Shown here in pieces: positions 14,915-18,980 of a stretch of 64,000 bases of DNA. The translations under genes and the position numbers were made by a program. Origin of the DNA: Thermobifida fusca NBRC 14071 = JCM 3263. GTDB taxonomy: Bacteria > Actinomycetota > Actinomycetes > Streptosporangiales > Streptosporangiaceae. The DNA lies in assembly GCF_001592045.1 (NCBI RefSeq), contig NZ_BCWB01000014.1, positions 1-64,000 of the forward strand, read 5' to 3'. The notes beneath the pieces are model-generated. The model made no database searches. It saw nothing but the letters and a program-made list of their open reading frames with translations, and had not been told where the DNA came from. Numbering within the stretch: the stretch's first letter is position 1; every line of letters starts with the position of its first letter.

Positions 14915-15241
14915 GTGTCTGCCACCCCGTTCTCCCCCGACGTCGTCGCCGCAGTCACGCAGCACATGAACGACGACCACCCGGACGACACCCTGCTCAT
15001 CGTCCGCGCTTTCGGCGGCTATCCGGAGGCGACTGCGGCGCGGATGACCGGTCTGGACGGCACCGCGGGAGAGTACTCCGCCACCGTCGACGGCCGAGAG
15101 GTCGCCGTGCGCATCCCCTGGTCCCAGCCGCTCACCGAACGCGCCCAGATCCGCACCGAAGTGGTGCGGCTGTACCGGGAGGCCTGCGCGCGGCTCGGCG
15201 TCGCCCCGCGCGGGGAAGCCCAGGAGGGGACGGAGCACTGA
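14915..15241 (+). CDS. DUF2470 domain-containing protein
   Basis: A 108-residue protein that is almost entirely one DUF2470 domain. The hallmark HMNDDHPDDTLLIVRAFGG is near residue 17. The same domain forms the C-terminal part of HugZ-like heme-utilisation proteins, but the flavin-reductase-like N-terminal domain is missing here. A heme or iron role is possible but not shown. The GTG at 14915 follows AAAGGA. Confidence 0.85.
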   Translation: MSATPFSPDVVAAVTQHMNDDHPDDTLLIVRAFGGYPEATAARMTGLDGTAGEYSATVDGREVAVRIPWSQPLTERAQIRTEVVRLYREACARLGVAPRGEAQEGTEH

Positions 15242-15396: not shown

Positions 15397-17898
15397 ATGA
15401 CAGTTCCCCAACCCTCTGACCCTGAGTCGCCCACCCGCAAAATCGAGGCGGTCGAGCCGACCGTCCAGCTCACCCCCTCGGAGCCGGGTGTCACCCGCAA
15501 GCTCACCGCGCTGCTGCGGCCCGGCGCCACGCGGCGCCTTCCCGCGGCCGAGCCGCGCACCGCGGTGCTGACCAGGCCGGTGCGGCGCCGGGGAAGGCTG
15601 GGGCGGCTCGCCTGGCGGGTACTGGAAGGACCGGCCAGCGAAGTCGAATACCGGATCCCTGCGGAGCTGCGGGAACGCTACACCGTCCAGGAGTATGTCG
15701 GCGCGGGCGGCGAGGCGGTGGTCTACCGGGCCGTGCCGGTGGGCCGCGACGGACCGCCGATCGCGCTCAAGCTGTACCGGTCCGGACACGACATCAACCG
15801 GGACCTGCTGGACCGGATCAGCGCCCTGGGCACGGTCAGCCCGCACATCCCCGTGCTGCACGGCTACGGGTATGCCCGCGCTCCGTGGGGGGAGGAGATC
15901 GCCTGGGAGGCGCAGGAGTACTTCGCGCTGGGCTCGCTGCGCACCCTTATCGACCAGGCCCCGCTCCCCGACGACCAGGCCCGCGCCGTCATCGCGGCCC
16001 TCAGCGATTGCCTCGGCTACTGGCAGCAGTCGCTGAACTACAACCACACCGACGTCAAACCGGAGAACCTGCTGATCCGCTCCCTGGATCCTCCGGTGTT
16101 CGCGCTGACCGACTTCGGCGGAGCCGTCCGCGCGACGATGAGCCAGATCTACGGCGGGCAGGCCATCACCGAGGCCTACGCCGCGCCCGAGGTGATCGAA
16201 GGGCGCCGGGAAGCCCCGGCCGCGTGGTGGTCGCTGGGGGTGATCGCGCACGAGCTGGTCACCGGGCAGCGTCCCCCGCGCAGCGGCAACTGGTTGACGG
16301 CCCGCAGTACCGCGGTGGACCTCTCCGCGGTCGCCGATGAACGCTGGCGGCTCCTGATCCGCGGCCTGCTCACCCCGGACCCTAAGACGCGCTGGGGTGA
16401 CGCCCAGGTGCGCCAGTGGCTGCGCGGGGAGCGCCCCAGCGTGGCCCGGCCGCGCAAGCACCGGCCCATCACATTCGAAGGCGTGGCGCACGAGGACCCG
16501 CCCAGTCTCGCCTTCGACTTGATGGACCGGTTCGATAAGGGGGCGGTGTGGCTGCAACGCCGCCACCAGGAGGTGGAGACGTGGCTGTCCCGCGAAGTCC
16601 ACGACCTCACCTTCGACCCGGCCCCGCTGAAGCAGCTCCGCACCCGCCCGGAGCGGGCGCACGTCGCGATCAGCGCCCTGGCCGCCCAGTACGTGCCAGG
16701 GCTGCCCCCGCGCTACCGGGGCCACCAGATCACCGCCGAAGGCGTCTTGGAGCTCGCCCGCGGGGAAAGCACCCAGCAGGCGGTTCTGCGCGAGGCGATC
16801 GAGTGGGGGGCCGTGCAGTCGGCGGCTCGGCACTGGTGCACCCACCCGCGGTGCCGCAGCCACGAAACCCGGCGCTGCCAGCTGCTGGAACTGGTGCACC
16901 ACGAGGTTCCGCTCATCATGCGGCAGGTGCGGGCCACCGTGGACGGGCTGGCGCAGACACCCGACTTCACCCCGCCGGAAGAACACGACTGGGATGCGGC
17001 CTGGGCGCGCGCCGCCGAACTCGTCTTGGACCCCGAGGCCGCGGCACGCTACCGGCGGCTGCTGCTGACCCGCTCGTGGCTGCCCGGCCGCTACGGTGAT
17101 GCTGCCCGCGCCCGGTGGTGGACCGAGCAGCGCACGACTGCGCTCCGCGGCGACCGCACGGCCCGGAGCACCCGGGCGGCCCTGGTCACCGCGGTCCTGC
17201 TGCTGCCCAGCGCGGTGCAGGCGGGGGCCGCGCAGCGGGCCCGGGCGGCGACCGAGTCCCGGGAGCGGCGCCAGCAGCGCTGGGAGCGGTTCACCTCGTC
17301 GGTCGAGTCCCGCTGGTCGGCGACGCGGGCTCGGCTGGCCCGGCAGTGGGAGAAGCGGCGTACCGGCCCGTTCGAATGGCATACGCCGGAGGCGCGGGAG
17401 GAGCGGCGGCGCCGCCGGGAAGCGCGGCGGATGGAGCGCGGGATGGCGCGGCTCCAGCGGGCCATGGCGGCGGGCCGCTGCCGCCGTTTCGCCCGGCCCG
17501 CGGCGCTGGCCGGGCTGCTGGACGGGTGCGGGCTGTGGCTCTGGGAGTCCCAGGGCGGCCTGTTCACCGACCAGGAGTGGGTGGTGACCGCGTTCGGGTG
17601 GGCGGAGGCGATCCGCGACAACAGCCTGGTCACCTTGGCCGCCCAGCTCTGCTCGTCGCTGCTGGAGCTGCTGCCGGGCGGGATCGGCCTGGTCTGGTGG
17701 TTCCCGGTCCTGCTGGGGGTGCTGCTGTTCGCCTTGGGGCGGACCGCGGCCAATCAGCACCGCAGTGCCCGCACCCGGCTGGTCGCCTACCGTCTCGCGG
17801 TGGTCGCCAGTGTGCTCGTCGTGGTCAGAGCACTGGCCCACGGGCTGTTCTTCCTGTTCATGGGGGTGCTGATTCCCGCCGCGCTCTTGGCCGGCTGA
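15397..17898 (+). CDS. Large Ser/Thr protein kinase with C-terminal membrane helices
   Basis: An 833-residue protein. A kinase domain spans about residues 93-335. It has a glycine loop VGAGGEAVVY, Lys125 in IALKLY, the catalytic loop HTDVKPEN with Asp219, Lys221 and Asn224, DFGG at 239-242 and APE at 263-265. The usual Arg of HRD is Thr, making it a non-RD kinase. The 60-residue N-terminal tail is rich in Thr, Pro and Arg. After the kinase comes a long helical region (about 350-620) with Cys and His residues in HWCTHPRCRSHETRRCQ, an Arg-rich coiled stretch (about 610-700) and two to three membrane helices at the end (about 755-833). I know no named family with this whole architecture. Confidence 0.8.
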   Translation: MTVPQPSDPESPTRKIEAVEPTVQLTPSEPGVTRKLTALLRPGATRRLPAAEPRTAVLTRPVRRRGRLGRLAWRVLEGPASEVEYRIPAELRERYTVQEYVGAGGEAVVYRAVPVGRDGPPIALKLYRSGHDINRDLLDRISALGTVSPHIPVLHGYGYARAPWGEEIAWEAQEYFALGSLRTLIDQAPLPDDQARAVIAALSDCLGYWQQSLNYNHTDVKPENLLIRSLDPPVFALTDFGGAVRATMSQIYGGQAITEAYAAPEVIEGRREAPAAWWSLGVIAHELVTGQRPPRSGNWLTARSTAVDLSAVADERWRLLIRGLLTPDPKTRWGDAQVRQWLRGERPSVARPRKHRPITFEGVAHEDPPSLAFDLMDRFDKGAVWLQRRHQEVETWLSREVHDLTFDPAPLKQLRTRPERAHVAISALAAQYVPGLPPRYRGHQITAEGVLELARGESTQQAVLREAIEWGAVQSAARHWCTHPRCRSHETRRCQLLELVHHEVPLIMRQVRATVDGLAQTPDFTPPEEHDWDAAWARAAELVLDPEAAARYRRLLLTRSWLPGRYGDAARARWWTEQRTTALRGDRTARSTRAALVTAVLLLPSAVQAGAAQRARAATESRERRQQRWERFTSSVESRWSATRARLARQWEKRRTGPFEWHTPEAREERRRRREARRMERGMARLQRAMAAGRCRRFARPAALAGLLDGCGLWLWESQGGLFTDQEWVVTAFGWAEAIRDNSLVTLAAQLCSSLLELLPGGIGLVWWFPVLLGVLLFALGRTAANQHRSARTRLVAYRLAVVASVLVVVRALAHGLFFLFMGVLIPAALLAG

Positions 17899-18062: not shown

Positions 18063-18980
18063 GTGCAGAAAATGGCCGAGGGTTCGCATTCCGCTATCAC
18101 GTTGGAAGCGGGAAAGTACCGCGCCACAGTCGACCCGCTCGGTGCCGCCCTGCGCACGCTGCACTGGGGTGAGCGGGAACTCGTCTGGGGATACCCGGAG
18201 GGCCGCCCCCAACTCGCGCAGGGACAGATCCTCCTCCCCTGGCCGAACCGGATCGACCACGGTCGGTACTCCTTTGGCGGGACCACCTACCAACTGGAGA
18301 TCACCGAACCGGAACTCGACAACGCGATCCATGGGCTGACCAGCACACTCCTGTGGCAGCCGAGCCAGATCACCGCGGACTCGGTCCGTTTCACCCTTGC
18401 GTTCGACGGCGCGCCCGGCTACCCCTTCCGCATGGAGTTCTGGGTGTGCTACAGCCTCGACCCCGACCACGGGCTGCACGTCCGCATCGGGGCGCAGAAC
18501 ACGGGGGACGGCCCGGCACCCTACGGCCACGGCAGCCACAACTACCTCACTCTGGGACTCCCGGTCGACGAGGTCACCCTGCAGCTTCCCGCCGCGGAAT
18601 GGCAGCCCGTCAACGAGCGGATGATCCCCACAGGACCGGTCCGCTCCGTGGCCGGCACCGACTACGACTTCCGCACTCCCCGGCAGGTCGGCCCCACCGT
18701 CTTGGACACGGCGTTCACCGGCCTGCGCTTCGACGAGGCGGGGCGTTCCTGGACGGTGCTGAGCGCCGGGGAGCTGTGCGTCGGCCTCTGGGCCGATGAC
18801 AGCCACCCGTGGCTCCAAGTGTTCTCCGCCGACTATCCCGGCCCGGAACGCCGCCGCCATCTGGCTGTCGAACCGATGACCTGCCCGCCCAATGCGTTCG
18901 TCACCGGAACCGACCTGATCGTGCTGGACCCGGGGCAGAGTATCGAGTCGTCCTTCGGCATCACCTCTACCCCGGAGTGA
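18063..18980 (+). CDS. Aldose 1-epimerase (mutarotase-like)
   Basis: A 305-residue galactose mutarotase-like protein that interconverts the alpha and beta anomers of aldoses. Typical features are LLPWPNRIDHGRYSF with the sugar-binding Arg, NAIHGLT with a conserved His, the second His of YGHGSHNYL and a late Glu in the LAVEPMTCPPNAF segment. GTG 18063 has GGAGAA upstream, and ATG 18072 is a close alternative. No sugar transport or catabolic operon surrounds it. The stop codon lies in a potential stem (18970-18977 with 19009-19016). Confidence 0.9.
   Translation: MQKMAEGSHSAITLEAGKYRATVDPLGAALRTLHWGERELVWGYPEGRPQLAQGQILLPWPNRIDHGRYSFGGTTYQLEITEPELDNAIHGLTSTLLWQPSQITADSVRFTLAFDGAPGYPFRMEFWVCYSLDPDHGLHVRIGAQNTGDGPAPYGHGSHNYLTLGLPVDEVTLQLPAAEWQPVNERMIPTGPVRSVAGTDYDFRTPRQVGPTVLDTAFTGLRFDEAGRSWTVLSAGELCVGLWADDSHPWLQVFSADYPGPERRRHLAVEPMTCPPNAFVTGTDLIVLDPGQSIESSFGITSTPE

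Follow-up and report, generated by a model that had tools for sequence, protein, structure and literature searches.

A membrane-anchored non-RD protein kinase of Thermobifida fusca with an undescribed C-terminal domain and a threonine tail resembling FHA docking sites

The window analysed here is a stretch of 64,000 nucleotides of a Thermobifida fusca contig, and the gene under study is an open reading frame at positions 15397-17898 of its forward strand. The gene starts with ATG, has a strong coding composition, and encodes a protein of 833 residues, in agreement with the original prediction. From the N-terminus, the protein consists of a disordered-looking tail rich in Thr, Pro, and Arg with T-x-x-[ILVM] repeats (residues 1-92; 15397..15672), a kinase domain (residues 95-338; 15679..16410; PF00069, E = 3.1e-22), an unnamed C-terminal domain (residues 357-588; 16465..17160), an Arg-rich, largely variable, and probably coiled segment at about residues 613-700 (17233..17496), and terminal hydrophobic segments representing two to three membrane helices (17668..17895), all encoded on the + strand. 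Conservation of the Arg-rich segment is low at residues 626-675 and rises again at 676-700, and the Kyte-Doolittle windows exceed 1.2 at residues 743-787 and 791-833. The predicted order of a Thr/Pro-rich tail, a kinase, a helical-looking region with a Cys/His cluster, an Arg-rich segment, and membrane helices is therefore present as described. Among 15 orthologues, region 350-620 is almost as conserved as the kinase domain, so that it is neither a chance reading frame nor the result of drift. Judged from sequence, the gene product is a genuine bacterial protein kinase that is anchored in the membrane and belongs to an undescribed family.

A Pfam scan of the protein detected only Pkinase and PK_Tyr_Ser-Thr, and its PF00069 score of 79.7 bits (cut-off 31.7) places it among the Hanks-type Ser/Thr kinases. 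The catalytic loop reads H217-T218-D219-V-K-P-E-N (NHTDVKPEN): as originally noticed, HTD (residues 217-219; 16045..16053, +) replaces HRD, and the absence of the Arg before the catalytic Asp, which makes this a non-RD kinase, is common to all 35 distinct orthologues. The DFG motif (residues 239-241; 16111..16119, +) is intact and occurs as TDFGG in 35 of 35. In the following, we call the window kinase and its orthologues group A, and use the letters B, C, F, and G for groups of related kinases. In the kinase tree, which was built by a quick search type with SH-aLRT support and no bootstrap, groups A, F, and G and a set of pseudokinases form one clade (SH-aLRT 98) whose members are all non-RD, and a single change from RD to non-RD suffices.

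The C-terminal domain was defined by a profile (A2) of 15 sequences from group A, its RD paralogues (group C), and the pseudokinases. No family in Pfam, NCBIfam, PADLOC, or the PDB profiles covers it, and we found no description of it in the open-licence literature; the claim of an unusual domain order with an undescribed C-terminal region thus survived the profile search proposed along with it. A PDB-profile match to a Polycomb chimera over the Cys region (E = 0.2) was judged to be due to chance. Structure prediction, also proposed, was run but did not yield a usable fold: the AlphaFold models were poor (pLDDT 42 for the full length and 46 for the domain) because each had only four input sequences, and they give the domain no fold support. 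H479, C481, H483, C486, and C494 are invariant in 15 sequences from group A, group C, and the pseudokinases, and the motif H479-x-C481-x-H483-x2-C486-x7-C494 (16831..16878, +) is found in all 35 distinct orthologues. The Cys/His cluster of the original prediction is thereby extended to a motif common to other kinase groups, and since H-x-C-x-H-x2-C-x(n)-C is invariant across them, it is probably a metal knuckle.

Beyond group A, 21 further domain matches were examined; 18 lie behind a kinase domain, and the other three are short fragments. Genome-level searches, which covered a sample of GTDB species, found the domain in 93 of 299 genomes of the order, all listed matches falling within the same family, and in 3 of 296 genomes of a phylum sample, two of the three being short matches like those of group B. 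In fact, group B kinases carry only about the first 100 residues of the domain (residues 357-456; 16465..16764, +), as detected by hhalign with a probability of 96.9 and an E-value of 1.4e-10 over 94 columns. By these profile comparisons, region 357-588 is a real unnamed domain that also stands behind kinases of other clades. The source genome itself has the domain once more, following an HRD kinase (G000:C36:2501-4045, equivalent to L079:2501-4045). This second kinase has no obvious membrane helices, and the two genes flanking it are of membrane type and have homologues next to group G kinases. The pseudokinases L054, L055, and L140-L143 (loops ELPD, PLGA, and VVGD) retain the domain with its knuckle intact, and several of them adjoin a gene of about 890-1030 aa.

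Orthologues of the window gene were found in 18 of 61 genomes of the GTDB family, with identities of 53-82%; the nearest named match is that of Thermobifida cellulosilytica (82%), and one genome of the same genus also reaches 82%. Beyond residue 665, the T. cellulosilytica orthologue (L041:8001-10489) departs from the frame that its relatives share; a frameshift, either in the draft sequence or in the gene itself, is the probable cause. Synteny is kept in group A in the order YceI-like gene, often a DUF2470 gene, kinase, and aldose-1-epimerase-like gene, with outer neighbours that are unrelated antisense genes and are also conserved. In the window, the DUF2470 gene lies upstream (14915..15241, +; PF10615, E = 1.9e-21); it is a frequent neighbour, and an inserted antisense gene intervenes in some lineages. 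The epimerase-like gene (18072..18980, +), whose name was recognised from its sequence, follows the kinase in 12 of 13 distinct orthologue loci at a distance of -1 to 324 bp, and this arrangement, together with the 1-base overlap of the two genes in L045, makes their co-transcription possible. A promoter scan found nothing. Judging by these comparisons, the group A gene is vertically inherited.

No phosphatase or transporter gene is linked to the kinase in the orthologue neighbourhoods, no FHA gene was found in positions 5001-27000 of the window or in the other group A or group C loci, and the group A neighbourhoods contain no operon with FHA, radical SAM, and ClpB-like AAA genes. The statement that the kinase stands alone is hence accurate for the Thermobifida/Nocardiopsis-like lineage as far as phosphatases and transporters are concerned, although a same-strand epimerase-like gene accompanies nearly all orthologues, and tabulation of neighbours showed that the statement fails for the relatives, which are operonic. 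Nor is the further claim of an open pathway supported as it stands: relatives with the same type of non-RD kinase and C-terminal domain form operons with FHA, radical SAM, and ClpB-like AAA genes, and RD relatives with FHA and PP2C genes.

Two groups from Actinomycetes resemble the window protein in having a kinase, a related C-terminal domain, membrane helices, and tail arrays of the T-x-x-X type. Group B kinases are RD and lack the Cys/His knuckle, yet keep the tail and the operon. According to Pfam and the neighbourhoods, their loci contain the kinase, an unnamed protein of about 420 aa, ClpB-like AAA, radical SAM, FHA, and PP2C genes in varying order and completeness, the FHA gene being present in 9 of 10 and PP2C in some. 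Group F kinases are closer to the window kinase, with which they share a clade, a non-RD loop (PTDVKPDN, PIDFKPDN, PIDVKPDN, PLDFKPAN, or PLDLTPEN), and a knuckle-bearing C-terminal domain; their tight operons comprise ClpB-like AAA, radical SAM, FHA, and kinase genes, with overlapping starts at several junctions and an FHA gene in 6 of 6 loci. In contrast to both groups, the window kinase stands by itself and has an aliphatic tail code rather than D or Q (see below). The operons of L062, L064, and L080 (group B) and of L144, L145, and L148 (group F) have in common a kinase, an FHA protein, an NrdG-like radical SAM protein, and a ClpB-like AAA protein; PP2C accompanies those of group B and large downstream genes those of group F, one of which, in L145, encodes a 1406-aa CHAT protein. 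We found no description of such operons in the open-licence literature. L080, the RD kinase of an FHA-PP2C operon, branches together with L077, also RD, just outside the non-RD clade. Both have long branches and an unsure placement, so that an FHA link ancestral to the non-RD clade is likely rather than proved.

The Thr/Pro-rich tail had been noticed originally, but not the repeated array within it. In the window protein, T-x-x-[ILVM] motifs start at T13, T22, T33, T37, T45, T55, and T59; that is, seven of nine Thr residues have an aliphatic residue at +3, compared with a mean of 1.9 in shuffled tails, only 2 of 5000 of which scored as high. The array is repeated in the orthologues. To compare groups, we counted the residue three positions after each Thr and shuffled the full tails; this test replaced a background motif count, which was unreliable because gene calls in the relatives came from a composition script and several starts were called too late. 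Position +3 is I, L, V, or M for 68 of 135 Thr residues in group A (21.6 in shuffles, maximum 35), D for 29 of 38 in group B (3.2, maximum 10), and Q for 16 of 39 in group F (2.4, maximum 7). None of these counts was equalled in 2000 shuffles, with the proviso that orthologue tails are not independent samples; the window tail, however, reaches significance by itself. Codes foreign to a group were at or near chance, save for a slight excess of Q in group A (6 against 2.5). Some arrays are tandem copies, such as PTQRD-like five times in L080, PPTRIQ three times in L148, and repeated TTR[IVL] in L089. In the group C kinases L056, L058, and L060, motifs of the T-R-V-D/E type stand at the C-terminus and not at the N-terminus.

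FHA domains follow a pT+3 rule that divides them into pTxxD and pTxxI/V readers (PMC6468809). The tail codes of groups A and B fit this rule, and the pTxxQ code of group F falls outside both of the classes given there. The FHA proteins adjoining the L062 and L064 kinases of group B contain TRRD, matching the kinase tails, and the FHA protein of L126/L145 in group F contains TVYQ, as does the tail of its kinase; these three cases are suggestive only. It is because the operons of close relatives encode an FHA reader that the tail motifs look like FHA docking sites.

PknG of mycobacteria and corynebacteria is likewise a non-RD kinase, and the window protein resembles it in having an N-terminal Thr tail that looks disordered, an additional Cys-metal module (putative here), and an FHA client (proposed here). 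The autophosphorylation sites of PknG lie in a disordered N-terminal region, to which GarA is anchored through its FHA domain (PMC8546545). However, PknG is soluble, with a rubredoxin-like domain ahead of the kinase and TPRs behind it, whereas the window protein has its Cys/His module after the kinase and possesses membrane helices; a Pfam scan detected neither the rubredoxin-like domain (PF16919) nor the TPR domain (PF16918) of PknG in it.

Four FHA genes are present in the source genome, which we assigned from sequence and position to FhaA, FhaB, a GarA/OdhI homologue carrying an ETTS motif, and an FHA-HTH protein. They belong to a minimal set of the family, and 12 of the 18 group A genomes contain no more than four. 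The GarA/OdhI homologue (L082; G000:C5, about 22413) has an N-terminal zinc-ribbon-like Cys cluster. FHA-HTH, the one gene traced as possibly tracking group A, has matches in all 61 genomes and cannot be singled out as the reader. Neither Pfam domain of PknG was found in the source genome, so its GarA homologue needs another kinase; both the window kinase and PknB are candidates for this role. A general replacement of PknG was rejected: PknG is missing from 11 of the 18 group A genomes, including the source, but present in 7, which leaves no clean complementarity.

We propose that the N-terminal tail is phosphorylated, by the kinase itself or in trans, at the repeated T-x-x-[I/L/V/M] sites, and that the phosphorylated tail would recruit an FHA-domain protein to the membrane as substrate or effector, on the model of PknG and GarA/OdhI but here membrane-tethered. 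The C-terminal domain, whose putative metal knuckle may be structural or sensory, would link kinase and membrane helices and probably serves as the regulatory input. The operons with adjacent FHA, radical SAM, and ClpB-like AAA genes would be the ancestral circuit, from which the window lineage would have kept the kinase alone, and the reader would then have to be unlinked, that is, FhaA, FhaB, the GarA/OdhI homologue, or FHA-HTH. We consider the chances of this model as a whole to be about even; counting against it are the lack of a linked FHA gene at any group A locus and the fact that none of the four FHA genes is singled out.

The alternative with the best claim is that T-x-x-aliphatic could be a mere substrate preference: the tail motifs would only be the phosphoacceptor consensus recognised by this kinase or by kinases of the PknA/PknB type, forming an array of regulatory sites with no FHA docking in this lineage. 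Mycobacterial Ser/Thr kinases are known to prefer hydrophobic residues after Thr, which agrees with such a consensus, as does the unlinked state of FHA genes in group A. Still, the +3 residue varies by clade among D, Q, and aliphatic residues, and it is the D and Q clades whose operons contain FHA genes; this pattern fits reader specificity better than the preference of one kinase, and we regard the alternative as rather unlikely.

A mainly metal- or redox-sensing kinase, whose knuckle would set kinase activity in response to zinc or the redox state and whose output would be carbohydrate metabolism via the epimerase-like neighbour, would account for the invariance of the knuckle and for the conserved co-directional gene, and the rubredoxin-like domain of PknG offers a precedent (PMC8546545). 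We find it distinctly unlikely, since knuckles of this invariance often have a structural role only, mere inheritance may account for the synteny given that the antisense neighbours are conserved too, and group B retains tail and operon without a knuckle.

The possibility of a pseudokinase scaffold, catalytically dead on account of the HTD loop and the missing F-helix Asp, arises from the motif AAWWSLG (residues 275-281; 16219..16239, +), which places Ala276 at the F-helix Asp site of other kinases and is found in 34 of 35 orthologues, with ASWWSLG in the other one; the same columns in group B read RDWWSLG. Sister pseudokinases in the same clade, with loops such as ELPDVRPED and PLGAFRPDD, point in the same direction. 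Nevertheless, some eukaryotic kinases with HTD are active, CLK and SRPK among them, and K125, D219, N224, and DFG are all kept in the window kinase and its orthologues. The protein is probably an active non-RD Ser/Thr kinase, and a pseudokinase seems very unlikely. Least probable of all is an anti-phage defence kinase like MAD6 or PD-T4-6: PADLOC mad6 (E = 2e-25) and the PD-T4-6 models do match, but in the kinase domain only, the NCBIfam MAD6 score (50.1 bits) is far below the curated cut-off of 460, and in group A the gene has been passed on vertically, as a single gene in conserved synteny, with no defence island around it and, in the window, no defence neighbours.

Some relatives do adjoin DO-GTPase2 or CHAT genes, which are typical of conflict systems (Kaur et al. 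2020, PMC7159879). That study links actinobacterial kinases with TM helices to conflict modules of the DO-GTPase/GAP1-N2 type, and the passages of it considered here contain no description of the C-terminal domain. The DO-GTPase2 genes adjoin L135 of group G, whose members are mostly HTD and about 520 aa long, and L135-L138 adjoin two genes homologous to neighbours of the HRD paralogue in the source genome. No DO-GTPase, GAP1, PP2C, or vWA gene was recognised by sequence around the window kinase. The absence of PP2C and vWA neighbours also distinguishes it from the YegI-PphC-YegL system of E. coli, although YegI has a long membrane-containing C-terminal region and an unusual catalytic loop (VGDVNQNS) as well; YegI was rejected as a relative of the C-terminal domain because it matched neither profile of that domain.

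The C-terminal domain is clearly a candidate for a family entry of its own. The operons of kinase, FHA, radical SAM, and ClpB-like AAA genes, with PP2C or CHAT in addition, would, if this interpretation is true, constitute a membrane phospho-signalling system that the open-licence papers found do not describe. More tentatively, and with less than even confidence, we suggest a clade-specific pThr+3 code, in which T-x-x-D, T-x-x-Q, and T-x-x-aliphatic arrays are each matched to a cognate FHA reader and the operonic phospho-tails scaffold a membrane machine of ClpB-like AAA, radical SAM, and sometimes CHAT peptidase; the window kinase would then be a solitary descendant, such a module turned resident gene, with an aliphatic code rewired to a housekeeping FHA protein. 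Assigning FHA readers to orphan bacterial kinases is an open problem for most of the 20-odd kinases of such genomes, and this code, if true, would let sequence alone contribute to solving it.
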